From an uncultured Spirochaetota bacterium (GTDB taxonomy: Bacteria; Spirochaetota; Brachyspiria; Brachyspirales; Brachyspiraceae): 64,000 bases of DNA. The notes below the pieces were generated by a model that saw only the letters and a list, made by a program, of their open reading frames with translations, was not told where the DNA came from and did not search any database. The stretch's first letter is position 1. Every line of letters starts with the position of its first letter. Positions 1,661 through 26,184 of the stretch are shown here, one piece after another. The stretch spans positions 62,001 to 126,000 of the forward strand of contig CALXQJ010000003.1 in NCBI GenBank assembly GCA_944390575.1. Direction: 5' to 3'. Made by a program: the position numbers and the translations under genes.

Positions 1661-1784
1661 ACGTTTCCCCCTATAACAATATGAACTTATATTTTTAAGT
1701 AAAGTAAAATATTTAAAAAACTTAAATAATTTACATAATACTTTACAGTGTCGGAAATAAAATAAATTATCTAAGCAATAATTT

Positions 1785-2201: not shown

Positions 2202-2212
2202 CAATAAACTCC

Positions 2213-2881: not shown

Positions 2882-3298
2882 ATATTTTTATTCCTCCTTA
2901 AATTCGCATTTTATATACAAAAATAAGTTAAACAATCTCAAAATAAAAATATGCCTAACAATAAACATTATAATATAATAACAAAAATATCTTACAAAAT
3001 AAATAGTAATAATAAATGAAATTTACAATAAAAAGTAGATAATTATTAAAAAAAATCTACTATAAAAAAAGATATAATACAACTATACAAAAAAGAACAC
3101 TATAGAAAAAATGTTCACAAAAAATACTATAATAATTAGAAAGTGTAGCTATTTTTGTATAAAATGTTTTACTAAATAAATTAGAAAAACATTTTTTTAA
3201 TTTTGTCTATAAAAAACTAATAAAAATAGACTATAGTATTATGTACTTTTTTAAAATATACGATAGATTAATAGTATGAAATAAAGGAGTTTATACTT
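2882..3298. other. A/T-rich divergent intergenic region
   Basis: There are 417 bases without a gene between radC (minus) and the outer-membrane-type gene at 3299 (plus). It must hold both promoters. I see two small inverted repeats: GAACA (3095-3099) with TGTTC (3112-3116), 12 bases apart, which looks like an operator, and AGTAGAT (3034-3040) with ATCTACT (3055-3061), a weak hairpin. No open frame of convincing composition and no RNA gene is visible. Confidence 0.5.
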
Positions 3299-4120
3299 AT
3301 GAAGAATAATATTATTTATAAATTATTTACAATTATTTTATTAATTAGTTCGAATCTATACTCATTTGAAGAAGGATTTGTTTGGGGACTTAAGGCGAAT
3401 ATTAGTGGAACAGCTACTCTACCGTCTATTAGTCAAGAAGATTTAGATAAGATAGGGGCTGCTTATATGAAGGGGTCTGTTGGTTCTGTGGCTGATGGAG
3501 AAGCTGAACTTGGATATTTATTTGGAAGTAAAAGATGGTTTGGAGGAATAGAGCCTGATAAGTTTAGTGGTATGAGTGCTTTTGTAGCTTTAGGTGTTGG
3601 TAGTGGATTCGCTGGACAGGTTGCAGGAAATACTTTTGAGGGTAAAACTGTAAATATGTATATAAACGCAACTTATTCTCCTGTTATAAGTTTCGGAGCT
3701 GGAACTAAGGCTTATTTTTATAATAGTAAATTAGCTCTTGGTTTGTATGTTGGTGGAAAGATGATAGCTGATTTATCTCCACAGTATTTAGCTTATGCTG
3801 ATGATACTACTGTTCCTGGACTTCCTGATATTGGAGAAATTATAGTTACTGACTTTATGATAAAGAATATGAATCCTTTTATGGCTAGTGTTAAATTAAT
3901 GCTTGAATATAATCAGCCTGTTAATGAAAATGTAGAAGTTACTTTAGGTGTATTTGCAAGATATAATATATATACACCAAAATATATAACTATGCCTGAT
4001 TCTTTATTATCATTATTGCAAACTGTAAGACCAAATTTTACAGTAGAGACACCATTACCTTCATACTATATAAACTCTATAGACTTTGGCTTAAGTCTTG
4101 GTTTATCATTTAAGGGATAA
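3299..4120 (+). CDS. Probable outer membrane beta-barrel protein with signal peptide
   Basis: A 273-residue protein with a Sec signal peptide (hydrophobic residues about 8-20, likely cleavage after NLYS) and no lipobox cysteine. The mature part alternates glycine-rich strands and turns (ALGVGSGFAG, SPVISFGAGTKAYFY, LALGLYVGGKM) and ends in FGLSLGLSFKG, the amphipathic last-strand pattern of outer membrane barrels. The start follows AAAGGAG by 9 bases. I do not recognise a named family; Brachyspira has several such proteins of unknown role. A 48-base gap to the first lipoprotein gene makes an operon likely, so the two may work together at the outer membrane. Periplasmic location is the alternative. 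Confidence 0.6.
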   Translation: MKNNIIYKLFTIILLISSNLYSFEEGFVWGLKANISGTATLPSISQEDLDKIGAAYMKGSVGSVADGEAELGYLFGSKRWFGGIEPDKFSGMSAFVALGVGSGFAGQVAGNTFEGKTVNMYINATYSPVISFGAGTKAYFYNSKLALGLYVGGKMIADLSPQYLAYADDTTVPGLPDIGEIIVTDFMIKNMNPFMASVKLMLEYNQPVNENVEVTLGVFARYNIYTPKYITMPDSLLSLLQTVRPNFTVETPLPSYYINSIDFGLSLGLSFKG

Positions 4121-4168
4121 GATAAAGAAATATAATAGGGGTAATATGTATTACAAAAGAGGCTTATT

Positions 4169-5830
4169 ATGAATAAAAAAAATCTTTACTTAATTTCAAT
4201 TCTAATACCTATAATGATATCATGTAGCAGTGCGATGAATCCAATGTATCTATACTATAATAGAACAAAGTCATCTTCTAGTCAAAATACTAATGAGGTT
4301 ACAACCCCTGATGCTGTAGACCCTGATAAAGATCCTTTTCTTAAAGCACCTTATAATGATCCTAATTATGGTGGATTTAACGCTTCTAAATTTGACACTT
4401 GGCTTTTTAAGGTGAGTTTTAAAGCAAATAAACTGCCTATGTATAAGTTTTTTGATGATAATACAAGAAAATGGGCATACGGTGCTAAGGACTGGAAAGA
4501 TAATATAGCAAACTCATATAAAGCTAATGATGGAGAAAATAGAGTATATGGTACTCCTGAAGTTGGAATATCAAGTATGACTATTTATAAATATGATAAA
4601 AATAATCCTCTATATGATATTAAAGGTTATTTAGAAGGAAGAATGGATAGATTTAGATTTTATTCTATAGATGGAAAAGCTGTTATTTCTTTAAAGCAAT
4701 ACTTAATTGCAGTTGATACATACTCTAAATTTGTATTTGCATTTGCTGCTATTACAGCTACAGGTTCTGCTGTTGGAAATACATATCCTACAGACTTTCA
4801 AGCTATAGAGTATCATGCAGATAAAATACACTTTTATGAATATGATCCTATAGGATATGTAACTGAAAGTGGAGATGTGGTATTCTATAAACATTATGAA
4901 GATGAGTTTACAAGAAACCCTACAGGATATTCTCCAAAAAAACATGGATATACAAAAGTTGCAGAAAGAAATTCATCAGGACAAGGTTATTCTCCTTATA
5001 AGCCTATAACTGCAGATTCAGAAGCTAATGAAGATGATAAAAATAAATTCAAACAAGAAATTATAAAAATAGCAAATAAAGATTTATTCTGGAGAGACTA
5101 TATAGGATACAAAAATAGTGATAAAACTCAAATAGATTTAGATCAATGGTTGAAAGATGGCTATTCTGGAAAAAGCTTAATGTTGTACAAATATAATGTA
5201 TCATCAGATGCTAATACTATTACACTAAATAAAGAACATTATCATAATAAGACTAAAGAAAATATTACATATAAATTACAGATTATTATATCTGATAAAA
5301 TAGCAAAATATGTAAATACTAAAAATAATAAAGACATTATAAATGTAACATTACAAAGCGAAGAATCTAATCCGCTTTCTATTAATGGAAATATAGTATA
5401 CACAGTAGATAATGGTCCTATATTTGTAGATAGAATGCAAAATGCAACATTTACTAAAGCGTCTAGATATATACCGCCAGGAAGCACATTCTTACCAGAT
5501 GTATTAGGAACAGCATTTGGAGGTACTATATATAATCTTACATACAAATTTAATGAAAATGGTACTAAATATATTATTTCATTTGTATATAAAAATAAAA
5601 AATATGAGTACAATTTCAAATTAGCTAGATTTGATACTAATCCTACATATCATTGGACTGCAAAATATGAGGGTCTTGATATTTCAGGTACACTTGGAAA
5701 ATATACAAGAGTAGTACTCAGAAATAATGGACAAACTATAAGAAGTAGTATGACATTACATTCTATAGGTTTTGCAGAATCTCCAGACTCTGATGCAGGA
5801 TTAGAGATGGTTGCAGATTTACAGAAATAA
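4169..5830 (+). CDS. Surface lipoprotein, tandem family member 1 (C-module type A)
   Basis: A 553-residue lipoprotein precursor: hydrophobic signal ending IMISC, then NPMYLYYN, a Ser/Asn-rich linker, and the block DPFLKAPYNDPNYGGF that opens the shared N-terminal module (about residues 55-275; hallmarks TWLFKVSF, GRMDRFRFYSIDGKAV, FYEYDPIGYV, GYSPYKPI). The C-terminal module (about 280-553, type A) has DLFWRDY, DNGPIFVDRM and GRVVLRNNG, ending SDAGLEMVADLQK. It is closest overall to the last member of the row (12573). The gene follows the barrel-type gene by 48 bases, with AGAGG before the start. Function is unknown; the lipobox and location in a variable tandem array suggest a surface antigen or ligand binder. 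Confidence 0.75.
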   Translation: MNKKNLYLISILIPIMISCSSAMNPMYLYYNRTKSSSSQNTNEVTTPDAVDPDKDPFLKAPYNDPNYGGFNASKFDTWLFKVSFKANKLPMYKFFDDNTRKWAYGAKDWKDNIANSYKANDGENRVYGTPEVGISSMTIYKYDKNNPLYDIKGYLEGRMDRFRFYSIDGKAVISLKQYLIAVDTYSKFVFAFAAITATGSAVGNTYPTDFQAIEYHADKIHFYEYDPIGYVTESGDVVFYKHYEDEFTRNPTGYSPKKHGYTKVAERNSSGQGYSPYKPITADSEANEDDKNKFKQEIIKIANKDLFWRDYIGYKNSDKTQIDLDQWLKDGYSGKSLMLYKYNVSSDANTITLNKEHYHNKTKENITYKLQIIISDKIAKYVNTKNNKDIINVTLQSEESNPLSINGNIVYTVDNGPIFVDRMQNATFTKASRYIPPGSTFLPDVLGTAFGGTIYNLTYKFNENGTKYIISFVYKNKKYEYNFKLARFDTNPTYHWTAKYEGLDISGTLGKYTRVVLRNNGQTIRSSMTLHSIGFAESPDSDAGLEMVADLQK

Positions 5831-5845
5831 TAAATAATAATATTT

Positions 5846-5874
5846 ATAATTGGGAATTTATAGTTCCCAATTAT
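5846..5874 (+). terminator. Hairpin after lipoprotein gene 1
   Basis: A perfect 11-bp inverted repeat (5846-5856 with 5864-5874) with a 7-base loop and core TTGGGAA/TTCCCAA, 16 bases past the stop codon. A T-run follows only after some 15 bases (5888-5893), so it is a probable but not classical terminator. The same hairpin recurs at 7641-7675. Confidence 0.55.
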
Positions 5875-5896
5875 GATATATTAATTATTTTTTATA

Positions 5897-5956
5897 GATT
5901 TTGATTAAAAATGAATATTTTTTGTTATTGATTTTTACTTTAATATTCATTAAAAT
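5897..5956 (+). promoter_or_regulatory. Promoter of lipoprotein gene 2 with putative DeoR-type element
   Basis: A -35 TTGATT (5928-5933) and -10 TAAAAT (5951-5956) are separated by 17 bases. Just upstream is GATTTTGATTAAAAATGA (5897-5914), an 18-mer found unchanged at 7695-7712 and in front of the DeoR-type gene at 14256-14273. A 10-bp inverted repeat (5910-5919 with 5942-5951, AATGAATATT) straddles the -35 box. Regulator identity is inferred, not shown. Confidence 0.55.
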
Positions 5957-6062
5957 ACTTAAAAAGTATATTTAATATATATAGATTATATGATAAATAG
6001 TTAAAAACGTATTTATATATAAATTATAAAAAATTACTAAAAAAATAATAAAGAAAGAGATT

Positions 6063-7634
6063 ATGAATAAAAAAACTTTTTACTTAATTTTGATGATAAT
6101 ACCTATAATTATATCATGTAGTAATATGATGAATCCAATGTATTTATACTATAATAGAACAAAATCATCTTATAATAACACTAATGATGTAACAACACCT
6201 GATGCTGTAGATGCTGACAAAGATCCTTTTATACAAGGGGAGCATAATAATATAGGATATGGTGGATTTGATGGTAAAATATTTGATACTTGGTTGTTTA
6301 AAGTAAGTTTTCAAAGTGATAAACTACCTATATACAACTTTTTTAAAGATAATAGAAGTTGGTCTTATAATGGTACAGATTGGAAAAATAATAGTGCTAA
6401 CTACTATAAACCAGAAAATGGAGAGAATAAAGTATACGGAGCCCCATTTGTTGGAACAGTAGATATTAAAAATTTAACTGTATATAAATATGATAAATAT
6501 AATCCACTTTATGATTCTAAGGGATATTTATCTGGAAGAATGGATAGATTTAGATTTTATTCTATTAATGGAGAGGCTGTTATACCATTAAAGCAATATT
6601 TAATAGCAGTTGATACATATTCTAAATTTGTATTTGCATATGGAGCTATAACAGCTACTAGCTCGACTTTTGGAAATAAATACCCTACAGAATTTGAAGC
6701 TATAGAATTCCACGCAAAAAAAATACATTTTTATGAATATGATCCTATAGGATATGTCACTGAAAATGGAGATGTAATATTTTATCAACATTATAAAACA
6801 GAATTTGTAGCAAATCCAACAGGATATACTCCAAAGCAACATGGATATACAAGAGTAGCATCACATAATTCTCAAGGGCATGGATATTCTCCATACAGAC
6901 CTATAACTGATAATGTAGAAGCTCCTGATAATGAAAAAGAAGAATTTAAAAATAAGCTATCTACATTAAAAAATAAAGAATTCAAATGGAGAGATTACTC
7001 AGGATATATTAATACGGGTACAGGGCAAATGAATTTAGAAGAATGGAAAAATGCAAAACATTCGGGAAAGAGTTTAGAATTATATACATATAAGCTTACA
7101 GATGATACTATAGAATTGGTGAAAACTAAATATCGTACAGATCAAAAACATATAGAAGTATATAAACTAAAAAATATAACTTCTAAAACTACAGCTATAT
7201 ATGAAAATGCTAATAAAACAAAACTAAATTTAGATATAAATAAAGATAATGCTATTATAGTAAATGCTGTTGAGATTGGAACTGAAGATTATGGTCCTAT
7301 ATTTGTAGATAGAGTAATAAATGCTAAATTTACTAATGGAGATACTATTTATACATTTAATGAGGATGGTACTGAGTTTACATTAGAATATGGTAGTTGG
7401 TTTGGAAAGAAAAAATATAACTATAAGTTAGCAAGATTTGATAATAAGCTATCTATAAATTATAGTGCTATATATAAGGCGTCACCTGGTGGTACTTTTG
7501 GTGATTATGGTAGAGTTGTTCTAAGAAATAATGATGATCTAATAAAAACAAGTACTACTCTTGGCCAAATATGGGGACTTGGTACTGCTGATTCTGAAGC
7601 AGGACTTGGGTATAATGCACATAGGGTAAAATAG
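6063..7634 (+). CDS. Surface lipoprotein, tandem family member 2 (C-module type A')
   Basis: A 523-residue lipoprotein precursor with signal ending IIISC and then NMMNPMYLYYN. The N-terminal module (about residues 50-270) carries the family hallmarks TWLFKVSF, GRMDRFRFYSI, HFYEYDPIGYV and GYSPYRPI. The C-module is the A' version: EFKWRDYSGY, EDYGPIFVDRV, GTFGDYGRVVLRNND, ending EAGLGYNAHRVK. Its 3' part shares an exact 109-base block with gene 4 (7435-7543 equals 10794-10902), so the two have exchanged sequence. It has its own promoter and leader, duplicated in front of gene 3. Function unknown; lipid anchoring is supported by the lipobox. Confidence 0.75.
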   Translation: MNKKTFYLILMIIPIIISCSNMMNPMYLYYNRTKSSYNNTNDVTTPDAVDADKDPFIQGEHNNIGYGGFDGKIFDTWLFKVSFQSDKLPIYNFFKDNRSWSYNGTDWKNNSANYYKPENGENKVYGAPFVGTVDIKNLTVYKYDKYNPLYDSKGYLSGRMDRFRFYSINGEAVIPLKQYLIAVDTYSKFVFAYGAITATSSTFGNKYPTEFEAIEFHAKKIHFYEYDPIGYVTENGDVIFYQHYKTEFVANPTGYTPKQHGYTRVASHNSQGHGYSPYRPITDNVEAPDNEKEEFKNKLSTLKNKEFKWRDYSGYINTGTGQMNLEEWKNAKHSGKSLELYTYKLTDDTIELVKTKYRTDQKHIEVYKLKNITSKTTAIYENANKTKLNLDINKDNAIIVNAVEIGTEDYGPIFVDRVINAKFTNGDTIYTFNEDGTEFTLEYGSWFGKKKYNYKLARFDNKLSINYSAIYKASPGGTFGDYGRVVLRNNDDLIKTSTTLGQIWGLGTADSEAGLGYNAHRVK

Positions 7635-7640
7635 TATAAT

Positions 7641-7675
7641 ATTATAATTGGGAATTTATAGTTCCCAATTATAAT
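7641..7675 (+). terminator. Hairpin after lipoprotein gene 2
   Basis: A perfect 14-bp inverted repeat (7641-7654 with 7662-7675), 7-base loop, core TTGGGAA/TTCCCAA, the counterpart of 5846-5874. It lies 6 bases past the stop. The T-rich stretch that follows is interrupted. Confidence 0.55.
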
Positions 7676-7883
7676 ATATTAATTATTTTTTATAGATTTT
7701 GATTAAAAATGAATATTTTTTGTTATTGATTTTTATTTTAATATTCATTAAAATACTTAAAAAGTATATTTAATATATATATAGAGATATATATAAATAT
7801 ATAGATTATATTATAAATAGTTAAAAACATATTTATATGTAAATTATAAAAAATTACTAAAAAAAATAATAAAGAAAGAAACT
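7644..7883 (+). repeat. Upstream repeat, copy 2 (lipoprotein gene 3 leader)
   Basis: Second copy of the leader at 5846-6062, with a short A/T insertion near 7780-7802. It carries the same 18-mer (7695-7712) and the same promoter. Confidence 0.9.
7695..7754 (+). promoter_or_regulatory. Promoter of lipoprotein gene 3 with putative DeoR-type element
   Basis: TTGATT (7726-7731), 17 bases, TAAAAT (7749-7754), preceded by the 18-mer GATTTTGATTAAAAATGA at 7695-7712. It has the same architecture as 5897-5956. Confidence 0.55.
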
Positions 7884-7966
7884 ATGAATAAAAAACTTTT
7901 ATACTTAATTTTAATACCTATGATTATATCATGTAGTAATATGATGAATCCAATGTATCTATACTA
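7868..7966 (+). repeat. Exact 99-base start cassette, copy 1
   Basis: These 99 bases, covering the ribosome site, start codon, signal peptide and lipobox of gene 3, are identical to 9400-9498 at the start of gene 4. They point to recent duplication or gene conversion. Confidence 0.9.
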
Positions 7967-9404
7967 TAATAGAACAAAGTCATCTTCTAGTCAAAATACT
8001 AATGAGGTTACAACGCCTGATGCTGTAGATAAAGATAAAGACCCTTTTATACAAGGAGATCATAATAATATTGACTATGGTGGATTTAATGGAAATGTAT
8101 TTAATACTTGGTTATTTAAAGTAAGCTTCCAAAAAGATAAATTACCTATATATAATTTTTTTACACCTAATAATAATAGAACTTGGCTTGCTAATGGTAA
8201 AGATTGGAAAGGAAATTATACTACATATTATGATGGTGATAAAAATGAAAATATAGTTTACGGAACTCCAATTGGGGATAAGGGAATAGAAAATTTAAAA
8301 ATATACAAATATGATAAATATAATCCGCTTTATGACTCTAAAGGATATTTATCTGGAAGGATGGATAGATTTAAATTCTACTCTATAGATGGAAAAGCTG
8401 TTATAGATCTTAAACAATACTTAATTGCAGTTGATACATATTCTAAATTTATATTTGCTTATGGGGCTATAACAAAAGTTGATAGTACTCTTGGAAATAA
8501 ATATCCTACAGATTTTGATGCTATAGAATTTTATGCTAAAAAAATACATTTTTATGAGTATGATCCTATAGGATATGTTACTGATAATGGAAAAGTTGTA
8601 TTATATGATCATTATATAAAAGAATTCGTAGCAAATCCAACAGGATACTATCCTCAACAACATGGATATGATAAAGTAGCTGTACACAATCCAAGTGGAC
8701 ATGGATATTCTCCATATAAACCAATAAATAACAATAATAAAGAATTTAGAGTATCTATAGAAGAAATATCTATAAAGAATATAGATTCTCAAACTGCAAA
8801 TAGATATGCTTTAAAAGACTTATTTGGTAGATGGAATGCGGGTGATATAGAGAGTATATATGATTATGCAAATATTGGTTCTAGATTTAAGATAGCTCTA
8901 TACAATAATGAGTCTAGTAAAGATATAGAAATAATAACTGATGAATATCCAGATAAAGGTGCATCTATAAATAGTAAATATAAAATAAAAATGGGAGAAA
9001 AGAGCTTAAAATCTATAAATAAAAAAGATTTTATTTTTGAGTATAAAGATGAAGATGAAATTTTTATAGACTTATACTTTGATATAGTAAAATATGATGA
9101 ACCTATGTGGGGAAGTACTTTAGAATGGTCTTATTATTATGTGACAGATAATAAAATTTGTATAAAACTAAAGTATAATAAAAATACCAATAAATTAGTA
9201 TATTACTCACATAGTGATCATTACAACAATAGATTAATATTAGATAATATAAACATAAGTATTAACGAAAATGAAATAGGAGAAATTAAATTCCAGATAG
9301 ATGGTCAAGATGGAGAGTTAAATAAAAAATGTGGAAGTTCTGCAACTGGACTAAATAACAAGATAGAAATATCTTACAAATTAAAATTTAATAAATTAAA
9401 ATAA
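7884..9404 (+). CDS. Surface lipoprotein, tandem family member 3 (C-module type B)
   Basis: A 506-residue lipoprotein precursor (signal ending MIISC). The N-module resembles genes 2 and 4 (TWLFKVSF, GRMDRFKFYSIDGKAV, FYEYDPIGYV, GHGYSPYKPI). After about residue 285 it switches to a different C-module (type B), opening VSIEEISIKNIDSQTANRYA and ending NKIEISYKLKFNKLK. Type B lacks the GPIFVDR and GRVVLRNN blocks and instead resembles the ends of gene 5 and the lone lipoprotein at 46489. A 72-base patch (7943-8014) is identical to gene 1 (4234-4305), unlike the surrounding sequence. It is therefore a mosaic. Gene 4 follows after 11 bases with the duplicated start cassette, and the two are probably cotranscribed. 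Function unknown. Confidence 0.75.
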   Translation: MNKKLLYLILIPMIISCSNMMNPMYLYYNRTKSSSSQNTNEVTTPDAVDKDKDPFIQGDHNNIDYGGFNGNVFNTWLFKVSFQKDKLPIYNFFTPNNNRTWLANGKDWKGNYTTYYDGDKNENIVYGTPIGDKGIENLKIYKYDKYNPLYDSKGYLSGRMDRFKFYSIDGKAVIDLKQYLIAVDTYSKFIFAYGAITKVDSTLGNKYPTDFDAIEFYAKKIHFYEYDPIGYVTDNGKVVLYDHYIKEFVANPTGYYPQQHGYDKVAVHNPSGHGYSPYKPINNNNKEFRVSIEEISIKNIDSQTANRYALKDLFGRWNAGDIESIYDYANIGSRFKIALYNNESSKDIEIITDEYPDKGASINSKYKIKMGEKSLKSINKKDFIFEYKDEDEIFIDLYFDIVKYDEPMWGSTLEWSYYYVTDNKICIKLKYNKNTNKLVYYSHSDHYNNRLILDNINISINENEIGEIKFQIDGQDGELNKKCGSSATGLNNKIEISYKLKFNKLK

Positions 9405-9498
9405 AGAAAGAAACTATGAATAAAAAACTTTTATACTTAATTTTAATACCTATGATTATATCATGTAGTAATATGATGAATCCAATGTATCTATACTA
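9400..9498 (+). repeat. Exact 99-base start cassette, copy 2
   Basis: Identical to 7868-7966. The block begins at the stop codon of gene 3, so the duplication junction coincides with the gene boundary. Confidence 0.9.
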
Positions 9499-10993
9499 CA
9501 ATAAAAGGGCAAAATCATCATATAACAATAATACTAATGATATAATAATACCTGATGCTGTAGATGCTGATAAAGATCCTTTTATACAAGGGGAGCATAA
9601 TGATATTAACTATGGTGGTTTTGATGGTAAAATATTTGATACTTGGTTGTTTAAAGTAAGTTTTAAAGGAAACAAACTTCCTATATATAACTTCTTTTCT
9701 CCTAATGGTGGTAGAAATTGGCTTGCTAATGGTCAAGACTGGAAAGGAAATAGCGCTACATATTATAATGGAGATAAAAGTGAAAATATAGTTTATGATG
9801 CTCCTGTTGTTGGAAATCAAGGAATAGAGAATTTAAAAATATATAAATATGATAAAAATAATCCTCTTTATGACTCTAAGGGATATTTAACTGGAAGAAT
9901 GGATAGATTTAAATTTTATTCTATAGATGGAAAAGCAGTAATAGAATTAAAACAATACTTAATAGCAGTAGATACTTATTCTAAATTCGTATTTGCATAT
10001 GGTGCTATTACGGCAATTGGAAATACATTAGGAAATAAATATCCTACAGATTTTGAAGCCATAGAATTTCACGCAAAAAAAATACATTTTTATGAATATG
10101 ATCCTATAGGATACGTTACAAAAGATGGAGAAGTAGTACTTTATAATCACTATCAAACAGAATTTGTATCAGATCCAACTGGATATACTCCAAAGCAACA
10201 TGGATATACTGCTGTAGCATCACATAATCCTCAAGGTCAAGGATATTCTCCATACAGACCTATAACTGATAATGTAGAAGCTCCTGATGATGAAAAAGAG
10301 GAGTTTAAAAATAAAATAAATAGTTTAAAAGATAAAGAATTTAAATGGAGAGATTATTCTGGATATACGAGCAGTAAAGATCAGATAGATTTAGATGCTT
10401 GGAAGAATGCAAAACATTCAGGAAAAAGTTTAGAATTACATACATACACACTTACAGATAACAGTATAAAAATAGTAAAAACTAAATATGGAACCGAGCA
10501 GAAAACAGAAGAAGTTTATACACTAAAAACTATAACTTCTAAAACTACAGCTATATATGAAAATGCTAATAAAACAAAACTAAATTTAGATATAAATAAA
10601 GATAATGCCATAATAGTAAATGCTGTTGAGATTGGAACTGAAGATTATGGTCCTATATTTGTAGATAGAGTTAGAGGAGCAAAATTCCAAAATGGAGGTA
10701 ACACTTATACATTTAATGAAGATGGTACAGGGTTCACACTAGAATATAAAAAGACATTTGGTGGTACTGCTACTTATAAATATACTCTTGGCAGATTTGA
10801 TAATAAGCTATCTATAAATTATAGTGCTATATATAAGGCGTCACCTGGTGGTACTTTTGGTGATTATGGTAGAGTTGTTCTAAGAAATAATGATGATCTA
10901 ATTAAAACAAGTACTGTACTTGGACAAATAGGAGCATTAGGTACTGCCACTTCTGATGCTGGACTTGGATATAATGCAAATAGGGTAAAATAG
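9416..10993 (+). CDS. Surface lipoprotein, tandem family member 4 (C-module type A')
   Basis: A 525-residue lipoprotein precursor. The signal peptide is identical to gene 3 (ending MIISC), followed by NMMNPMYLYYNKRAKSS. The shared N-module (about residues 50-275) is followed by the A' C-module with EFKWRDYSGY, EDYGPIFVDRV, GTFGDYGRVVLRNND and the ending SDAGLGYNANRVK, very close to gene 2. The start lies 11 bases after gene 3, with no promoter between them. The mix of a gene 3 front end and a gene 2 back end is direct evidence of recombination inside the array. Function unknown. Confidence 0.75.
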   Translation: MNKKLLYLILIPMIISCSNMMNPMYLYYNKRAKSSYNNNTNDIIIPDAVDADKDPFIQGEHNDINYGGFDGKIFDTWLFKVSFKGNKLPIYNFFSPNGGRNWLANGQDWKGNSATYYNGDKSENIVYDAPVVGNQGIENLKIYKYDKNNPLYDSKGYLTGRMDRFKFYSIDGKAVIELKQYLIAVDTYSKFVFAYGAITAIGNTLGNKYPTDFEAIEFHAKKIHFYEYDPIGYVTKDGEVVLYNHYQTEFVSDPTGYTPKQHGYTAVASHNPQGQGYSPYRPITDNVEAPDDEKEEFKNKINSLKDKEFKWRDYSGYTSSKDQIDLDAWKNAKHSGKSLELHTYTLTDNSIKIVKTKYGTEQKTEEVYTLKTITSKTTAIYENANKTKLNLDINKDNAIIVNAVEIGTEDYGPIFVDRVRGAKFQNGGNTYTFNEDGTGFTLEYKKTFGGTATYKYTLGRFDNKLSINYSAIYKASPGGTFGDYGRVVLRNNDDLIKTSTVLGQIGALGTATSDAGLGYNANRVK

Positions 10994-14336: not shown

Positions 14337-15077
14337 GTGCTAAAAGTAGAAAGATATAAATTAATATTAGATCTCATTAATAAAAAACAAAATATAACCG
14401 TAGAAGAATTAACAAAACATTTAGATGTCTCTGAAGCTACTATACGTAGAGATTTAAATTCGTTAGAAGAGATAGGGAAGATTAAAAGAGTTCATGGTGG
14501 AGCTATTTCTATAGAAAGTGAAGATGATTGGATAGGATATAGACAAGAAATTAATTTAGATGCTAAAGAAAAAATAGCAAAATATGCTACTTCTTTTATT
14601 AAAGAGGGAGATACAATATTTTTGGATGCTGGTAGCACTGTACTTGGAATGATTCAATACTTAGAAAAGATAAAAAAGATAAAAGTAATTACAAACTCAT
14701 TAACAAATATTGAAGAATTAAGTAAATACAAAATAGAAAGTTATTTAATAGGTGGAAAATTAAAAGTAATAACACATTCTTTAGTGGGTAGTACTGCTAT
14801 TTTATCTTTAAAAAATTTTAATTTTAATTTAGCATTTATAGGTACTAACTCTATAACTATAGAAGGATACTCTACTCCAGACTATGAAGAAGCTGTGATA
14901 AAGTCTGAAGTATTATTAAAGTCAGAAAGATCTTTTATACTATGTGACTCTACAAAATTTGATAATAAATACTTTATAAACTTCTCTACATTAGAAGGTA
15001 CTAATTTAATAACAGATAATAAAAATGTAAATGATGAAATAAAAAATAAATTAGAAAATCTTTATATAACAGATTAA
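14337..15077 (+). CDS. DeoR/GlpR-family sugar operon regulator (FruR-like)
   Basis: About 246 residues from GTG at 14337, which follows AAAGGAAA at normal distance. An ATG at 14274 is in frame but lies within the operator and -35 region and has no ribosome site, so I reject it. The N-terminal winged helix (LKVERYKLILDLINKKQ, then SEATIRRDLNSLEE and KRVHGGA) is the DeoR signature. The C-terminal domain is the sugar-phosphate sensing fold (FLDAGSTVLGM, VITNS). It heads the fruK-fruA operon, 12 bases upstream of fruK, so it probably senses fructose-1-phosphate or a related effector and represses its own promoter. Confidence 0.88.
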   Translation: MLKVERYKLILDLINKKQNITVEELTKHLDVSEATIRRDLNSLEEIGKIKRVHGGAISIESEDDWIGYRQEINLDAKEKIAKYATSFIKEGDTIFLDAGSTVLGMIQYLEKIKKIKVITNSLTNIEELSKYKIESYLIGGKLKVITHSLVGSTAILSLKNFNFNLAFIGTNSITIEGYSTPDYEEAVIKSEVLLKSERSFILCDSTKFDNKYFINFSTLEGTNLITDNKNVNDEIKNKLENLYITD

Positions 15078-15089
15078 ATAGGAGTATAA

Positions 15090-16013
15090 ATGATATATAC
15101 ATTAACATTAAATCCAGCTGTAGACTATTATATAGATATGAATACCTTAAAAGAAGGAGAATTAAATAATATAAATAATGCATATACATTAGCAGGTGGA
15201 AAAGGTATTAACGTATCAAAGGTATTAAAAAATTTTAATATAGAAAATAAAGCTATACTATTAGCAGGAGGCTTTACAGGACATTTTATAAAAACAGATT
15301 TAGAATTATACAATATAGAAAGTAAAATAATAGAATTAGATAATAATACAAGAATAAATATAAAACTAAAAACACAAAATAATGAAACAGAAATAGCAGG
15401 AAAATCTCCTGATATAAGTGTAGAAAAAATAAATCAATTAATAGAGTTAATAGATAATTTACTAAAAGATAATGATATACTAGTATTAGCAGGAAGTGTA
15501 CCCTACTCTATAGGAAATGATATTTATTCTAAAATAATCAAAAAAGTAAAAGAAAATAAAAATATAAAAATTATCTTAGATGCAAGAGATGAAGCATTTA
15601 AGCTTGCTGTAGGCGAAAAAGTATTTTTAACAAAACCAAACTCAAAAGAATTAAGTGAATATTTTAATAGATCTATTGAAACTAAAGAAGATATTATAAA
15701 ATATGCTAAAGAATTAATAAAAGATGGTAGTGAGAATGTTATAATTTCACTTGGTAAGGAAGGTTCTATTCTAATTACATCTAATAATGAAGTATATTAT
15801 GGAAATGCACCTCACGGTAAACTTATTAGTTCTGTAGGGTGTGGAGATTCTATGGTTGCTGGAATAGTTTATGGTATAAGTAGTGGTTTTGATATAGTTG
15901 AGTCGTATAAATATGCTATAGCATCTGGTAGCTCTACAGCATTTTCTGAAGGACTTACTACATTTGAAAATATGAAAAATATTTTACAAAAAGTAAAAAT
16001 AGAAAAAATATAA
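15090..16013 (+). CDS. fruK: 1-phosphofructokinase (PfkB family)
   Basis: A 307-residue PfkB-family kinase that phosphorylates fructose-1-phosphate to fructose-1,6-bisphosphate. Seen are the opening MIYTLTLNPAVDYYI typical of FruK/LacC, the first signature AGGKGINVSKVLKNF, and the C-terminal nucleotide/anion-hole signature SVGCGDSMVAG with the catalytic Asp at residue 253. LacC (tagatose-6-phosphate kinase) is the main alternative, but position between a DeoR regulator and a fructose-type IIABC favours FruK. Gaps are 12 bases upstream and 21 downstream. Confidence 0.9.
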   Translation: MIYTLTLNPAVDYYIDMNTLKEGELNNINNAYTLAGGKGINVSKVLKNFNIENKAILLAGGFTGHFIKTDLELYNIESKIIELDNNTRINIKLKTQNNETEIAGKSPDISVEKINQLIELIDNLLKDNDILVLAGSVPYSIGNDIYSKIIKKVKENKNIKIILDARDEAFKLAVGEKVFLTKPNSKELSEYFNRSIETKEDIIKYAKELIKDGSENVIISLGKEGSILITSNNEVYYGNAPHGKLISSVGCGDSMVAGIVYGISSGFDIVESYKYAIASGSSTAFSEGLTTFENMKNILQKVKIEKI

Positions 16014-16034
16014 ATAAAAAAGGAGAGTCATTTT

Positions 16035-17903
16035 ATGTCTATAAAAGATGTTATAACATTAGAATGTATAGAAGTAAATTTAAAATCTACAACAAAAAAT
16101 GAAGTTATAGATGAATTAATAGAACTTTTATATAAAGCAGGCAAATTAAATAATAAAGAAAAATATAAACAAGCTATATTAGAAAGAGAATCAAAAGGCT
16201 CTACTGGTATGGAAGAAGGTATTGCTATACCACATGGTAAAACAGATGCTGTAAATACACCTACTATAGCAATAGGTATTTCTAAAAATGGAATAGATTA
16301 TGAGTCATTAGATGGAAAACCTTCTCAGTTATTTTTTATGATAGCAGCACCTGAAAATGCAAATGATACACATATAGAGCTTTTATCAAAAATTACAACA
16401 TTAGTATTAGATGAAGATATAACAAACAAACTTTTAAACTCTTCTACAAAAGAAGATGTAATAAATATACTACTATCAAATATAGAAGAAAGTGATGTAT
16501 CTAATTCATCATCAATAGAAGATAATAATTCTTCTTCATATTATGATGTATTAGCAGTAACAGCATGTCCTACAGGAATAGCACATACATATATGTCAGC
16601 TGATGCATTAAATAAAAAAGCAAAAGAAATGGGGATAAAGATAAAAGTTGAGACTAATGGTTCTACTGGTGTAAAAAATGAACTTACTGATGAAGAAATA
16701 AAAAATGCTAATGGAATTATAGTTGCTGCTGATAAAAATGTAGAGATGAATAGATTTGATGGTAAGAATGTAGAAATTGTTGGAGTTAAAGAAGCTATAA
16801 AAAATCCAGAAAAGCTTATAAATAATGCTATAAATAAAACAGCACCTATATATAAAGCAAACTCTACTTCTTCTTCTTTTTCTAAAAGAGAAAAGAGAGG
16901 TTTATATAAACATTTAATGAGTGGTGTATCAAATATGCTTCCTTTTGTTGTAGGTGGAGGTATTTTAATTGCATTTTCATTTATGTTTGGTATTAATGCA
17001 AGTAATCCAGAAGATCCATCATTTAATATGTTTGCAAAACTACTTAGTGATATTGGTGGTGGTAATGCCTTTTTCTTAATGGTTCCTGTTATGGCTGGAT
17101 TTATTGGTATGAGTATTGCTGATAGACCAGGATTTGCACCTGCTATGATTGGAGGTTTAATATCTCTTAATAATGGTGGTGGTTTTTTAGGTGGACTTGT
17201 TGGTGGTTTTTTAGGGGGCTATATAGTAGTTTTATTAAAAAAATTATTTTCTAAGCTACCAAGTAATTTTGAAGGTTTAAAACCTGTATTAATATTTCCA
17301 TTGTTTGGTATATTTTTTACTGGTGCTATTATGTATTTATTTATAGTAGAGCCTATAGCATTTATTAATAATGGTCTTAATGAGTTTTTAAAAAATCTTG
17401 GCACTGGAAACTTAATTCTACTTGGTACGGTATTAGGGGCTATGATGGCTACTGATATGGGTGGACCTATTAATAAGGCTGCTTTTACATTTGGTATAGC
17501 GGCTATTGCTGCTGGTGAATTTGCTCCACACGCTGCTGTTATGGCTGGTGGAATGGTTCCTCCTTTGGGTATAGCATTGGCTACTACTATTTTTAGAAAT
17601 AAGTTTACTCAAGATGAAAAAGATGCTGGAAAAACTTGTTATGTTATGGGGCTTTCATTTATCACTGAGGGTGTTATACCTTTTGCAGCTGCTGATCCTA
17701 TTAGAATTATTCCATCTTGTATGATAGGTTCTGCTATATCTGGGGCTTTATCTATGGCTTTTCATATAGAGTTAAGAGCTCCTCATGGTGGTATATTTGT
17801 TTTCCCTATTGTAAATAATCCTTTATTATACTTAGTTGCTATTTTAGTAGGAGCTATTATAACTGCTATGATAGTGGGATTAACAAAGAAAAATATTAAT
17901 TAA
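16035..17903 (+). CDS. fruA: PTS fructose transporter IIABC
   Basis: A 622-residue three-domain permease that imports fructose and phosphorylates it to fructose-1-phosphate. The IIA domain (1-150) has its phospho-accepting His67 in GIAIPHGKT. The IIB domain (about 170-265) has phospho-Cys178 in TACPTGIAHTYM. The hydrophobic IIC domain (about 285-620) includes the glycine-rich helices GGLVGGFLGGY and DMGGPINKAAF. Domain order and length are those of typical FruA IIABC proteins. AAAGGAG precedes the start. Last gene of the DeoR-fruK-fruA operon. Confidence 0.93.
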   Translation: MSIKDVITLECIEVNLKSTTKNEVIDELIELLYKAGKLNNKEKYKQAILERESKGSTGMEEGIAIPHGKTDAVNTPTIAIGISKNGIDYESLDGKPSQLFFMIAAPENANDTHIELLSKITTLVLDEDITNKLLNSSTKEDVINILLSNIEESDVSNSSSIEDNNSSSYYDVLAVTACPTGIAHTYMSADALNKKAKEMGIKIKVETNGSTGVKNELTDEEIKNANGIIVAADKNVEMNRFDGKNVEIVGVKEAIKNPEKLINNAINKTAPIYKANSTSSSFSKREKRGLYKHLMSGVSNMLPFVVGGGILIAFSFMFGINASNPEDPSFNMFAKLLSDIGGGNAFFLMVPVMAGFIGMSIADRPGFAPAMIGGLISLNNGGGFLGGLVGGFLGGYIVVLLKKLFSKLPSNFEGLKPVLIFPLFGIFFTGAIMYLFIVEPIAFINNGLNEFLKNLGTGNLILLGTVLGAMMATDMGGPINKAAFTFGIAAIAAGEFAPHAAVMAGGMVPPLGIALATTIFRNKFTQDEKDAGKTCYVMGLSFITEGVIPFAAADPIRIIPSCMIGSAISGALSMAFHIELRAPHGGIFVFPIVNNPLLYLVAILVGAIITAMIVGLTKKNIN

Positions 17904-20591: not shown

Positions 20592-21368
20592 TTAATTCAT
20601 ATTTTTTAGCATCTCTACTACTATCTTACTTGAATTATCAGAAGCAAGTGGTAAAAACTCTGCAAAACTTAACTCAGCATTTCCATCAGCCTTATCTGAT
20701 AAAGAACGAATAACTACAAAAGGAATATCAAATAAATAAGCAACTCTAGCTAAAGAAGCCCCCTCCATCTCAACAGCTCCAACATTAAATCTACTATTTA
20801 TAGATGATATCTTATTTTCATCTTGTATAAATTGATCACCTGTAGCTATAGAATCTATATAAACAAGATAATCTTCTTCTATAACCTTATTCGCACTATT
20901 AAAAGCTAATGTAACTAAATCTTCATCTGCCTTATAAAATATATTATCATTAGTATCCCCAGTATCTAAATCATGTTCTACTAAAGCCTCAGAAATAACA
21001 ATATCTCCTATATCATAATCACTTTTAGCTCCACCAGCAACACCTGTAAATATTATTTTCTCTACATTAAACTCTTCTAAAGCAATAGTAGTAGCAATAG
21101 CAGCATTAACCTTACCAACCCCAGACTTAAATAATACAACATCCTTACCTTCTAATTTACCTAAATAATAATTAATACCAGCTATATTTACTTCTTTTGT
21201 ATTTGATAACATATTCTTTAAATTTTCTATCTCTCTATCTAATGCCCCAACTATAGCAATAGTTTTCTTAGATTCTAATGTATCTCTACTCGAAGAATTA
21301 GAACAAGATAATATAAAAAATAAAATTAGTACAAAAAAGTTAATATTATTGATTTTAAAGTTTTTCAT
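20592..21368 (-). CDS. MTA/SAH nucleosidase, exported lipoprotein form
   Basis: A 258-residue protein combining a lipoprotein signal (hydrophobic to FFILSC, Cys22) with a full MTA/SAH nucleosidase domain. The enzyme splits 5'-methylthioadenosine and S-adenosylhomocysteine to adenine plus the thio-sugar. Catalytic residues are intact: Glu46 in GALDREIENL, Glu202 in GAVEMEGAS, Asp225 in SLSDKAD. Borrelia is known to carry exported nucleosidases of this family beside a cytosolic one, and the same arrangement is seen here. Outside the cytoplasm it could salvage purine from host nucleosides. It is a close paralogue of the next gene upstream. Confidence 0.87.
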   Translation of the reverse strand: MKNFKINNINFFVLILFFILSCSNSSSRDTLESKKTIAIVGALDREIENLKNMLSNTKEVNIAGINYYLGKLEGKDVVLFKSGVGKVNAAIATTIALEEFNVEKIIFTGVAGGAKSDYDIGDIVISEALVEHDLDTGDTNDNIFYKADEDLVTLAFNSANKVIEEDYLVYIDSIATGDQFIQDENKISSINSRFNVGAVEMEGASLARVAYLFDIPFVVIRSLSDKADGNAELSFAEFLPLASDNSSKIVVEMLKNMN

Positions 21369-21495
21369 AACATATTCCTTAAGTATATAAAATTAATTTA
21401 ATGAAAAATAATTTTACTATACTAATATTGTATTGTCAAGTTTATATTACTATAAACAGTAATATAAACTCAGCATCTAATTAAAATAATAAAAC

Positions 21496-22197
21496 TTAAT
21501 TAATATTTTTAAGCATCTCAACTACTATCTTAGTAGAGTTCTCTGCTGCTTTTGAAACAAACTTTGGAAAATCTACTAAAGCGTCACTATCTGCCTTATC
21601 AGAAAGAGAACGTATAATAACAAAAGGAACTTTATACATCAAAGCAACATGTGCCACAGAAGCTCCTTCCATCTCAATAGCACCAGCATTAAACTTATTA
21701 TGTATAGCTTTAACTTTATCATTTTGACCTACAAACTGATCGCCTGTAGCAATAGTATCTATATAAACAGCATTTTCTGTGATGACACTATTTGCAGAGA
21801 TTTTAGCAAGATTAACTAAAAACTCATCAGCAGGATAATAATTCTTATCATAGCCTTTTACTAAAATAGTAAGCTCATCACCATCTAAATCTGAAGTGTC
21901 GAAGTCGTGCTCTATTAAATCTTTAGAAATAACAATATCTCCTATATTGTATTCTGGATTAGCACCACCAGCTACACCAGTAAAAATAATTTTTTTAGCT
22001 CCAAATTTTTCTATAGCAATAGTAGTAGAAATAGCAGCATTAACCTTACCAATACCAGATTTTAAAAGTAAAACCTCTTTATCACAAAGTATACCTTTAT
22101 AATATGTAATACCGGCAACCTCTACTTCTTCAACATCACTCATCATAGACTTAAAATTAGAAATCTCAATATCCATAGCACCAATTATAGCTATCAT
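21496..22197 (-). CDS. mtnN: MTA/SAH nucleosidase, cytosolic form
   Basis: A 233-residue enzyme without a signal peptide, starting MIAIIGAMDIEI behind AGGAG. It has the family length and active-site set: Glu11, Glu177 in GAIEMEGAS, Asp200 in SLSDKAD. It recycles 5'-methylthioadenosine and S-adenosylhomocysteine and so relieves product inhibition of methyltransferases. It lies 127 bases upstream of the lipoprotein paralogue, in the same direction; the A/T-rich gap is large enough for a second promoter. High similarity across most of the length shows the pair arose by duplication. Confidence 0.92.
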   Translation of the reverse strand: MIAIIGAMDIEISNFKSMMSDVEEVEVAGITYYKGILCDKEVLLLKSGIGKVNAAISTTIAIEKFGAKKIIFTGVAGGANPEYNIGDIVISKDLIEHDFDTSDLDGDELTILVKGYDKNYYPADEFLVNLAKISANSVITENAVYIDTIATGDQFVGQNDKVKAIHNKFNAGAIEMEGASVAHVALMYKVPFVIIRSLSDKADSDALVDFPKFVSKAAENSTKIVVEMLKNIN

Positions 22198-22740: not shown

Positions 22741-22746
22741 TAAAAT

Positions 22747-23095
22747 AAGCGGAGCTATAAGCCGTATTCTGTCATTTAAGGTAAACATTTATCTACTCAT
22801 AACATCACTGCTATGCTCAAGCGAGCTACCTGAGACTATTCGAAAAGGGCTAATCTAATATCGTCTCCATTTGCTCTTGCCTCTTGTGGGGTTTACAATG
22901 CCATTTATGTTGCCATAAATGCGGTAAGCTCTTACCTCACCTTTTCACCATTACCTACAATAAATAGGCTGTATACTTTCTGTTGCACTTTCCATAGACT
23001 TACATCTTCAAGCCGTTAGCTTGCACAAAGCCCTTTAGAGGTACGGACTTTCCTCAATATTAATCACTCTAATACTGCGTTTACCCACTCCGCTT
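22747..23095 (-). ncRNA. rnpB: RNase P RNA (M1 RNA), class A
   Basis: About 349 bases. Read on the minus strand, the 5' arm AAGCGGAG (23095-23088) pairs perfectly with the 3' arm CTCCGCTT (22754-22747) to form helix P1. The universal CR-I core GAGGAAAGTCCG lies at 23055-23044. The 3' core ACAGAATACGGCTTA (about 22771-22757) is also present. Together these identify the catalytic RNA that matures tRNA 5' ends. Helix ends are taken from P1, so the boundaries are good to a few bases. Confidence 0.95.
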
Positions 23096-23105
23096 TGGGT
23101 TTTAA

Positions 23106-23131: not shown

Positions 23132-23179
23132 TAAATTTTATTATTGAATTTTAATAAGAATTGATATATAGTTTATAAT

Positions 23180-25249
23180 ATGGAAATTTATACTAAAGAC
23201 AAGACAAGACAAGACAAGACAAGACAAGACAAGACAAGACAAGACAAGACAAGACAAGACAAGACAAGACAAGACAAGACAAGACAAGAACTTTTATATA
23301 AAATACTCATAATAATATTTATATCTACAACATTAACTATAATAATATTATCAATTTTAGGAAGAAAAGAACGGATAGGATATTTAGATAATCCTACTCT
23401 TAATAATGAAGAAACATTGGAAATAAATAATATAGTTTACACTAATATTATTTATACTAATAAAAAAAATGAAATTACAAATAAAACTATAATAAATTAT
23501 ACAAACGAATTCTTATCAAATGAAGATGTATCTAAATATATATTAAAGAATGAAGAAATAACTAATTATATATACAACTTCAAAATAGGATACTACAGTA
23601 AAATATTCAAACATAGTGATATTTATGGTGTATATCCAAACACAAATAAAATATTACAAGATTATAACTTCATAAAAAATATAACAATAAATGATGGTAG
23701 TCCTTTTGGAAAATTTACATCAAAAAACTTAATAACAAAAATATATTATATTAAATATAAACTTTATATAAAAAAATATATTATTATTACAATAATGATA
23801 ATGATTATATTTATTATTTTTAAATACTTTATTATAAAATATAATAATAAATATACTTCATTTATAGAATATAGTTTATATATATCTTTTATATTAGCAA
23901 CTATACAATTTTGGATATTTTATCCAGGATATATGTTTAATCCAGATATTTGGGTATCTATATTTGAAGCTGTAGAAAATAATTATACAAATGCAAACCC
24001 ATTTATAATAGCAAAATTTTTACATGTAATGTATCATTTTTTTGGATATAATACATACTACGTATTAATACTAAATTTAATATTATGGTATTCATCTTTA
24101 AATATCATTATTATAGGTTTGTATATAAAATACAATAATAAATTTATAATACTACTATATTTAATAAGTTTTCTATATAATATATACATTATGAATATAA
24201 CTCATTTACGAGATTCTACATCTTCTTTAATTTTATTTTTAGCAATTTCAATTATTATATTTCAAACATTAGTATATAATAAGTATAATAATAAAATATT
24301 CACAATAATCCTAATGTTAACTTCTATTATTTTATTAATAATATCTATGTTTTGGAGGCATAATTTTATAGTATCTATATATCCAATATTTACTATATAT
24401 GCATATAAATTTTTAATAAAAAATAATAGTAGAAAATATATACTCAGATATATTACTTATATGATTATAATAGCTATATTTCTTATATCTATATATAAAG
24501 TAGTTCCATATTTATTTTTAGGAAAAAATGGAAATAATACTAGAACAGAATTAACATACCACTTATTTTACCTACAAATATTTGGAATGGCATATTACTC
24601 AGACGACTATTCAATTATCCCACAAAATTGGTATTATAATAATATAAACTCCAATGACTTAAAAAATTTATATATAAATAATAATTCTTATGCAGATATT
24701 TTTCCTATTTATATAAATAAAAATAATACAAAAAATGTATCCCAAATTTGGATTAAATATATAATAAAGCATCCATTATCATACTTAAAACATATTATAC
24801 CATTTACAAAAAAAATGTGGATACAAAAACCCTATAAACTAGGTGTATATTATATACAAAATGAAATTACAAAATCAAGCAACTGGATAAGTGAAAATTC
24901 TAAATACAAACTTTTTAATATAACAAAAATAAGGTTCTCAAATATAAGAAAAAATATATATAAATATATAATATTAAATTTTATAGACTTTAATACAATT
25001 TATTATATACTAGTATCTTTTATAATTTTAATAACATCATTATCTTTTTTAAAAAAATATAAGAATGAATTACTAATTATATCAACATCAATATCATTAT
25101 CTTCCATTATGACAGCATTAATAGTAGCACTATTTTCACCTGTAATTCATTTCAGATATATATACCCTGTAATACCAATAACAATTATAGCATTAATATC
25201 TTTCATAACATTTTTATATGATGAAATTATTGCAAAAAATAAAAATTAG
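23180..25249 (+). CDS. Phase-variable multi-spanning membrane protein, probable GT-C-type glycosyltransferase
   Basis: A 689-residue protein. Residues 8-41 are repeats of KTRQD, encoded by an 18-copy AAGAC tract; loss or gain of one unit shifts the frame. After the tract comes a membrane helix (about 43-66), a loop of some 120 residues, and then about ten further membrane helices. The loop-helix motif YPGYMFNPDIWVSIFEAVENN resembles GT-C family membrane glycosyltransferases that use lipid-linked donors, and a GT2 gene follows after 41 bases. I cannot assign donor or acceptor. There is no ribosome site before the ATG, and TATAAT abuts it, so expression control is unusual. In this sequence the frame is open. 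Confidence 0.65.
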   Translation: MEIYTKDKTRQDKTRQDKTRQDKTRQDKTRQDKTRQELLYKILIIIFISTTLTIIILSILGRKERIGYLDNPTLNNEETLEINNIVYTNIIYTNKKNEITNKTIINYTNEFLSNEDVSKYILKNEEITNYIYNFKIGYYSKIFKHSDIYGVYPNTNKILQDYNFIKNITINDGSPFGKFTSKNLITKIYYIKYKLYIKKYIIITIMIMIIFIIFKYFIIKYNNKYTSFIEYSLYISFILATIQFWIFYPGYMFNPDIWVSIFEAVENNYTNANPFIIAKFLHVMYHFFGYNTYYVLILNLILWYSSLNIIIIGLYIKYNNKFIILLYLISFLYNIYIMNITHLRDSTSSLILFLAISIIIFQTLVYNKYNNKIFTIILMLTSIILLIISMFWRHNFIVSIYPIFTIYAYKFLIKNNSRKYILRYITYMIIIAIFLISIYKVVPYLFLGKNGNNTRTELTYHLFYLQIFGMAYYSDDYSIIPQNWYYNNINSNDLKNLYINNNSYADIFPIYINKNNTKNVSQIWIKYIIKHPLSYLKHIIPFTKKMWIQKPYKLGVYYIQNEITKSSNWISENSKYKLFNITKIRFSNIRKNIYKYIILNFIDFNTIYYILVSFIILITSLSFLKKYKNELLIISTSISLSSIMTALIVALFSPVIHFRYIYPVIPITIIALISFITFLYDEIIAKNKN
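23196..23289 (+). repeat. Pentanucleotide tract, 18 full AAGAC units
   Basis: Eighteen uninterrupted AAGAC units (23196-23285) plus AAGA lie inside codons 6-41 of the membrane protein gene. All three reading frames of the tract are open (they cycle through K, T, R, Q, D). Past the tract, the two other frames stop within about 9 codons. This is the standard design of a slipped-strand on/off switch. Confidence 0.97.
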
Positions 25250-25290: not shown

Positions 25291-26184
25291 ATGAAAGTAT
25301 CAGCAATTATTCCTTGTTATAACGAAGAATTAACAATTAAACAAGTTATAAAAGATATAAAAAAATATTCTCCAGAATGTGAAATTAATGTATTTGATAA
25401 TAATAGTACAGATAACACTTATAATATAGCAAAAGAAGAGGGTGTAAATGTATATAAAGTTATGTATCAAGGGAAAGGAGAAGTTATAAGAAGAGCTTTT
25501 GATATTATAAATGCTGATATTTATATACTAATAGATGGAGACAATGAATGTGATGCTTCTGCAATACCAAAATTAACTAATTGTTTAATAGAAGAACAAT
25601 TAGATATGGTAACTATAATTCGTAAAGATGGTGTATATAGAAAAGGACATTCTTTTGGAAATAAAATGATAACATCTTTTGCAAGAGTATTATTTGGAAA
25701 ATACTGCAATGATATATTAAGTGGATATAGAATATTTTCTAATAAATTCGTAAAATCATTTCCATCACACTCAAAAGGATTTGAAATAGAAGCAGAACTT
25801 ACTATTTTTGCTCTTCAAATGAGACTTCCAATAGGTGAAATGGAAGCAGAATATAAAAGTAGACCTGAAGGATCATTTTCTAAACTCAATACATTTAGAG
25901 ATGGATTTAGAATTATTGGATTAATAATAAATCTATTAATGAGCGAAAAACCTATTTTGTTTTGGTCTATAATATCTTCTATTTTTATATTACTTGGATT
26001 TTACTATGGAATCCCAGTAATATACTCTTTCATTAAAGAAGGATTTGTTCCTATAGCTACATCTGTACTTTCTGCAAGTTTTGTTATACTATCTGCAATA
26101 TCATTTATAACAGGACTTATAATGCATTCTACTGGAAAAGTCATAAGAGAGATAAGAAGATATAAATATATATCTATTAAGTAA
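25291..26184 (+). CDS. Glycosyltransferase family 2, DPM-like, with C-terminal membrane helices
   Basis: A 297-residue enzyme: an N-terminal GT-A domain (MKVSAIIPCYNEELTIKQVI), nucleotide-binding FDNNSTDNT, and metal-binding DGD in ILIDGDNECDAS. A conserved acceptor region (DILSGYRIFSNKFVKSFP, then GFEIEAEL) follows, and two C-terminal membrane helices (about 222-242 and 252-277). This layout matches bacterial dolichyl/undecaprenyl-phosphate sugar synthases, which load a sugar onto a lipid carrier. Such a carrier would be the natural donor for a GT-C enzyme like the preceding gene, so the two likely form one surface-glycan module. Confidence 0.82.
   Translation: MKVSAIIPCYNEELTIKQVIKDIKKYSPECEINVFDNNSTDNTYNIAKEEGVNVYKVMYQGKGEVIRRAFDIINADIYILIDGDNECDASAIPKLTNCLIEEQLDMVTIIRKDGVYRKGHSFGNKMITSFARVLFGKYCNDILSGYRIFSNKFVKSFPSHSKGFEIEAELTIFALQMRLPIGEMEAEYKSRPEGSFSKLNTFRDGFRIIGLIINLLMSEKPILFWSIISSIFILLGFYYGIPVIYSFIKEGFVPIATSVLSASFVILSAISFITGLIMHSTGKVIREIRRYKYISIK

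Follow-up and report, generated by a model that had tools for sequence, protein, structure and literature searches.

The question raised by this locus is whether a long run of pentanucleotide repeats at the start of a membrane-protein gene works as a genetic switch, as had been proposed from the letters of the DNA alone (the sequence-only reading). The window, which is the whole stretch of 64,000 nucleotides that was analysed, belongs to a Brachyspira genome of 2.0 Mb in 19 contigs (G000). In our judgement the AAGAC tract is very probably a slipped-strand phase switch of a gene for a GT-C-like enzyme; slippage in vivo, the presence or absence of the protein and the sugar donor and acceptor are parts of this picture that we infer.

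The repeat tract and its reading frames

The elements on which the proposal turns are the following.

23180-23182 (+): ATG; no other start for the long frame lies 5' of the tract or inside it
23196-23289 (+): perfect (AAGAC)18.8 tract of 94 nt, the proposed switch (Tandem Repeats Finder, 100% match)
23180-25249 (+): putatively phase-variable gene for a GT-C-like glycosyltransferase of 689 aa; the tract length as it stands keeps it in frame (ON)

The tract comprises 18 whole AAGAC units plus 4 nt. It is preceded by ATG 23180 at a distance of 16 nt and ends immediately 5' of the first membrane helix encoded by the 689-aa open reading frame (ORF). A scan of the 64-kb window for arrays with units of 4-9 nt, at least four copies and a length of at least 24 nt returned this tract as the sole array. 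The 18-unit tract had been correctly recognized within the gene by the sequence-only reading, whose span of 23180-23340 contains the tract and overshoots it on both sides. It had also rightly described the repeat as encoding a cycling KTRQD peptide, the tract as open in all three frames and the present copy number as giving a product of 689 residues from 23180 to 25249.

Counted from the tract, the three frames meet their stops at +12, +23 and +1960 nt, and the long frame remains open for 652 further codons. The other two frames do stop soon past the tract, as had been claimed, after 3 and 7 codons and not the supposed nine or so. An upstream start was found for the long frame only. Initiation downstream of the tract, a circumstance that the sequence-only reading had named as speaking against a switch, was looked at and rejected: there is no in-frame start before the first helix, and the next start in the long frame after ATG 23180 is a TTG that lies 127 nt beyond the tract and would cost the protein its first membrane helix, which is present in nearly all relatives. 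Two features of slipped-strand contingency loci are seen here: the 5' part of the coding region holds a long and perfect array of short units, and the product would be lost in the other frames.

According to the proposed mechanism, gain or loss of AAGAC units at replication would shift the frame between ATG 23180 and the rest of the gene. Whole-unit numbers that are multiples of three (15, 18, 21) would give the complete enzyme, which has 689 aa at 18 units, and the ON state; with any other number, translation would end 3-7 codons past the tract and the gene would be OFF.

The region upstream of the start codon

Two features lie upstream.

22742-23096 (-): RNase P RNA gene
23138-23179 (+): presumed promoter region, by consensus match only; 56 of 58 nt (23138-23195) are kept in a second copy on contig C2

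The divergent intergenic region between the RNase P RNA gene and ATG 23180 measures 83 nt. Farther upstream, at 20592-22197 (-), the window holds two adjoining paralogous nucleosidase genes (PNP_UDP_1), one of them with a lipoprotein-like signal. By match to consensus, two promoter-like hexamer pairs can be discerned before the gene: TTGAAT-17-TATAGT at 23144-23172 and TTAATA-17-TATAAT at 23151-23179. ATG 23180 has no obvious ribosome-binding site in front of it, and as the -10-like TATAAT also abuts this codon, the starts of transcription and translation are uncertain.

That abutting hexamer fits another reading, in which the tract would affect transcription or mRNA stability, or would serve as a spacer between the promoter and the true start, so that the number of units grades expression and the frame is not switched. 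At the window locus this is opposed by the position of the tract: it belongs to the sole ORF available, and the stretch from the tract to the first helix holds no in-frame start. The relatives, considered below, bear on this reading too.

A second copy of the cassette

One other AAGAC tract occurs in the window genome, at C2:79255-79324, and it sits in a second copy of the whole 5' part of the gene.

23138-23709 (+): cassette of promoter, ATG, tract and N-terminal module, about 97% identical to G000:C2:78683-79341

On the upstream side of the tract 56 of 58 bases agree between the two loci, and on the downstream side 408 of 420. The ATG is 110 nt away from the first codons beyond the tract in the window and 90 nt away in the C2 copy, and the difference of 20 nt equals exactly four units. 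With 14 whole units in the C2 copy, the frame set by its ATG ends 14 nt beyond the tract, and a frame of 842 codons is open and lacks a start. Judged by these frames, the copy in the window is ON and that on C2 is OFF, a single unit short of ON. Copy number thus differs between the window (ON) and C2 (OFF) and also between species, in a comparison that covers one isolate of the window species. Beyond 23710 the two genes diverge, which suggests that promoter, switch and N-terminal module have moved as a piece between different enzyme cores.

The encoded enzyme and its GT2 partner

Three parts of the protein and the gene that follows it are relevant here.

23366-23773 (+): residues 63-198, a beta-rich domain with a membrane helix on either side
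23843-25246 (+): GT-C-like membrane core, residues 222-689
23945-23947 (+): codon of Asp256, candidate catalytic acid, in a PG-x5-D motif in the first loop of the core; role suggested by GT-C enzymes
25291-26184 (+): GT2 glycosyltransferase (AglJ/DPM-like; Pfam PF00535, E 2e-17)

Neither Pfam nor NCBIfam holds a family for the 689-aa protein, and the same profiles run on 24 relatives gave no convincing family; three weak profile matches to single family members were judged to be due to chance. The AlphaFold2 model (mean pLDDT 84, pTM 0.71) places an N-terminal helix, the beta-rich domain (residues ~63-198), a second helix and the membrane core in this order. A Foldseek search of the PDB with the model yielded nothing below E 0.001 (best E 0.02). 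When residues 222-689 were compared with VIA-align, the 35 top structural rows were all GT-C or GT-C-like, with Z from 14.9 to 7.8, and the first unrelated row had Z 5.8. The best match is ArnT (Z 14.9, rmsd 4.9 over 298), with Pmt4 at Z 14.7; sequence identity of the core to the ArnT and protein O-mannosyltransferase GT-C enzymes is about 9%. The first outer loop of GT-C enzymes contains an acidic residue. In the window protein Asp256, which like Pro249 and Gly250 does not vary among 24 relatives, would fall in this loop, roughly where ArnT has its acid as judged from the ends of the alignment only. The modelled core has the GT-C membrane fold, and the protein is probably an inner-membrane GT-C glycosyltransferase, as assigned from the predicted fold and the neighbouring genes.

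The GT2 protein is nearest to AglJ and the dolichyl-phosphate sugar synthases. Its best NCBIfam match is AglJ (TIGR04182, E 4e-53), yet this falls below the cut-off of the model. GT2 relatives stand directly 3' of GT-C family genes in many genomes, examples being G002:C12, G001:C1 and G012:C84 (two places each), G015:C88, G015:C96, G021:C145, G003:C219, G009:C2, G013:C418 and G016:C8. The earlier description of the gene as glycosyltransferase-like is therefore backed by both the fold and a conserved partner, and the DPM-like GT2 enzyme next door is as had been stated. The GT2 enzyme is the probable maker of a lipid-phosphate-sugar donor; the GT-C enzyme would probably use a lipid-phosphate sugar, likely the one from this neighbour, and would thereby modify a glycan or glycolipid of the cell surface at the outer face of the membrane.

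A family centred on Brachyspira

With a profile built for the family, every one of the 26 Brachyspira genomes has matches, as does a single genome from a sister genus; the other 269 Spirochaetota genomes searched have none. A search of plasmid records and viral contigs yielded no match. The window genome holds about ten long copies. The beta-rich N-terminal module is tandemly repeated in several paralogues, some ORFs carrying the domain up to four times. On contig C6 positions 1-10752 form an array of four GT-C family genes, and one of the paralogues there (L010 7045-10752) has 1235 aa, with about four beta-rich modules before a single GT-C core. Several short contigs end in or near tracts, namely C8, C9 and C18 (L003 774-828 and 2894-2966; L011 3747-3854 and 1-123; L013 1-76). 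Both ends of C9 carry a tetranucleotide GATT/AATC tract, which also opens C18; tandem arrays of family genes therefore seem to be where the assembly breaks.

The 5' regions of 60 family loci from other Brachyspira genomes, picked by protein match alone and blind to repeats, were examined. A tract of at least 24 nt lies within about 700 nt upstream of the domain in 36 of them, and several more have one farther upstream. Background was gauged from the window and 19 random stretches of 20 kb each; these 444 kb contain five tracts of at least 24 nt. An ATG occurs no more than 18 nt upstream of the tract in 40 of 45 family tracts against 12.2 expected from the same loci. The specific pattern of an ATG followed by AAGAC units was found in 11 of 26 genomes, with a reversed-pattern control near zero.

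Fused tracts and leader ORFs

Two layouts can be distinguished. In the window gene, the C2 copy and a few others (L010, L012, L076, L093) the tract lies inside the enzyme ORF. At most loci a short leader ORF contains it, and the enzyme gene begins in a different frame some tens of nucleotides downstream. Of 47 such loci, 43 have one or more leader frames open through to the enzyme start, against 15.5 expected from shuffled leaders (Z 10.4, a value that overstates independence because the loci are related, with the direction still clear). At 33 loci the leader stop overlaps a start codon (ATGA or TAATG). With the nearest ATG as reference, 19 loci are in a frame that reaches the enzyme start and 25 are out of frame. 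We read the leader layout as translational coupling that would be switched by slippage: only a leader translated in the right frame would reach and overlap the enzyme start, often in an ATGA, and thereby couple translation of the enzyme to its own. A polarity effect at these leader-type loci would give the same appearance in the sequence.

The leader layout bears on the idea of expression graded by the number of units. As that idea would have it, the tract of most relatives does lie in a leader outside the main gene. Against this, the relatives have an ATG just 5' of the tract, and the leader frame reaches the main start far above chance; graded expression is accordingly an improbable account of the tract. 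The lengths of the units speak to a further possibility, that the tract is a coding repeat that merely lengthens the cytoplasmic tail of the enzyme without switching anything. Such a role would agree with a tract that is open in all three frames and placed before the first membrane helix, and it predicts units that are multiples of three. Among the 45 family tracts the unit has 5 nt in 17, 4 nt in 16 and 7 nt in 12; units of 3, 6, 8 or 9-12 nt are absent, and none is a multiple of three. With the C2 copy out of frame as well, we regard a tail-lengthening role as very improbable. Least probable of all is a decaying paralogue or an assembly artefact in which the tract has no present role: some family members are indeed broken (the C11 copies, with several stops) and the assembly breaks at several tracts, for example on contigs C8 and C9, but at the window locus 689 codons are open and the tract is uninterrupted, its 94 nt are short enough for ordinary reads, and the design recurs in single-contig genome assemblies.

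The on/off phase switch put forward by the sequence-only reading is therefore supported by a perfect non-triplet tract, a single start, one open frame in three, a near-identical OFF copy on C2 that is four units shorter and the recurrence of this arrangement, in mixed states, at dozens of related loci across the genus. What goes beyond the single gene seen in that reading, and is the more novel part, is a genus-wide set of proposed switches, mostly with a separate leader ORF.

Other genes with such tracts

Genes for enzymes of other families carry comparable tracts. An enzyme that we take, from family knowledge of its sequence, to be an MBOAT-type acyltransferase is preceded in eight other species by a leader tract of pentanucleotide units, 5 to 15 in number and with mixed states; the sequence of the unit drifts (GCACC, ACCGC, AGCAC, ATCGC and others). 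In the window genome an MBOAT-like acyltransferase on contig C4 (L127, about 15000-16360, -) lies behind an (ACAGA)12.4 leader, and its ORF is itself frameshifted after 60 codons. Two arylsulfotransferase-like genes of the same genome (PF05935, E 1e-31 and 3e-28) have fused pentanucleotide tracts (L012 3731-5344, -; L127 18-1700, +), and the C12 gene of this type is out of frame with its ATG. A leader tract is also found at a PMT-family gene in G001. The MBOAT, arylsulfotransferase and PMT enzymes all modify, or could modify, surface glycans.

Three further observations concern genes of other kinds. The gene for a 442-aa membrane protein with no Pfam match (L010 10793-12121) opens with an ATG and, directly behind it, an in-frame (ACAAGCA)12.6 tract; a GT2 gene follows downstream. 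In G001 a GCTGA tract (L131 15675-15713) lies between a mutS-like gene and a divergent gene for a secreted protein, and is open only towards the latter. A lipoprotein-like gene of several Brachyspira species (L166, L167, L169) carries 12.8, 15.8 and 14.0 AAGAC units after the same ATG, and the tract is out of frame in all three.

Taken jointly, we incline to the view that Brachyspira has genus-wide slippage switches with units of 4, 5 and 7 nt over surface-decorating enzymes (GT-C glycosyltransferases, MBOAT acyltransferases and arylsulfotransferases), most of them coupled through leaders, and that a promoter-tract-N-terminal module piece is traded between loci.

Significance and comparison with known systems

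Slippage-driven phase variation is well known in Haemophilus, Neisseria and Helicobacter. The genus Brachyspira includes agents of swine dysentery and intestinal spirochaetosis. A search of the open-licence literature found no report of slippage switches in Brachyspira, which is weak evidence of absence; one paper uses 'phase variation' for variable surface proteins in general, and in another the term occurs only in the title of a reference. If the proposal is true, a single Brachyspira strain would be a mixture of many surface types, with a bearing on serotyping, on vaccines based on surface sugars and on the reading of genomes, in which annotators would label many such genes hypothetical or broken. 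The leader-ORF layout would represent a variant of the slippage switch.

With ArnT and the protein O-mannosyltransferases the window enzyme shares the predicted fold of residues 222-689, to which it adds a module of N-terminal helix, beta-rich domain and second helix that can be repeated in tandem. A GT2 donor maker paired with a GT-C transferase is the layout of the gtrB/gtr and arnC/arnT systems, and the window likewise has a gene resembling GT2 lipid-sugar synthases beside a GT-C gene. In the Haemophilus lex2A/lex2B system the repeats lie in a short upstream ORF and a sugar transferase follows downstream. Likened by layout alone, lex2A/lex2B resembles the leader-ORF arrangement of most Brachyspira relatives and differs from the window gene, in which tract and enzyme form one ORF. 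Lex2A is listed as a repeat carrier and lex2B as a lipooligosaccharide (LOS) gene (PMC3116884).

The nearest known systems are the LOS genes of Haemophilus influenzae with tetranucleotide tracts, lic1A, lic2A, lic3A, lic3B and lgtC (PMC3116884); lic2A, for instance, has 10 to 49 CAAT units, a number that varies between isolates (PMC3116884). The likeness consists in a non-triplet tract at the 5' end of a surface-sugar gene and in frame-dependent on/off expression, which for the window is proposed from sequence. The window differs in having a spirochete as host, a pentanucleotide unit, with 4- and 7-nt units in relatives, and a GT-C membrane enzyme from a family without a Pfam model.
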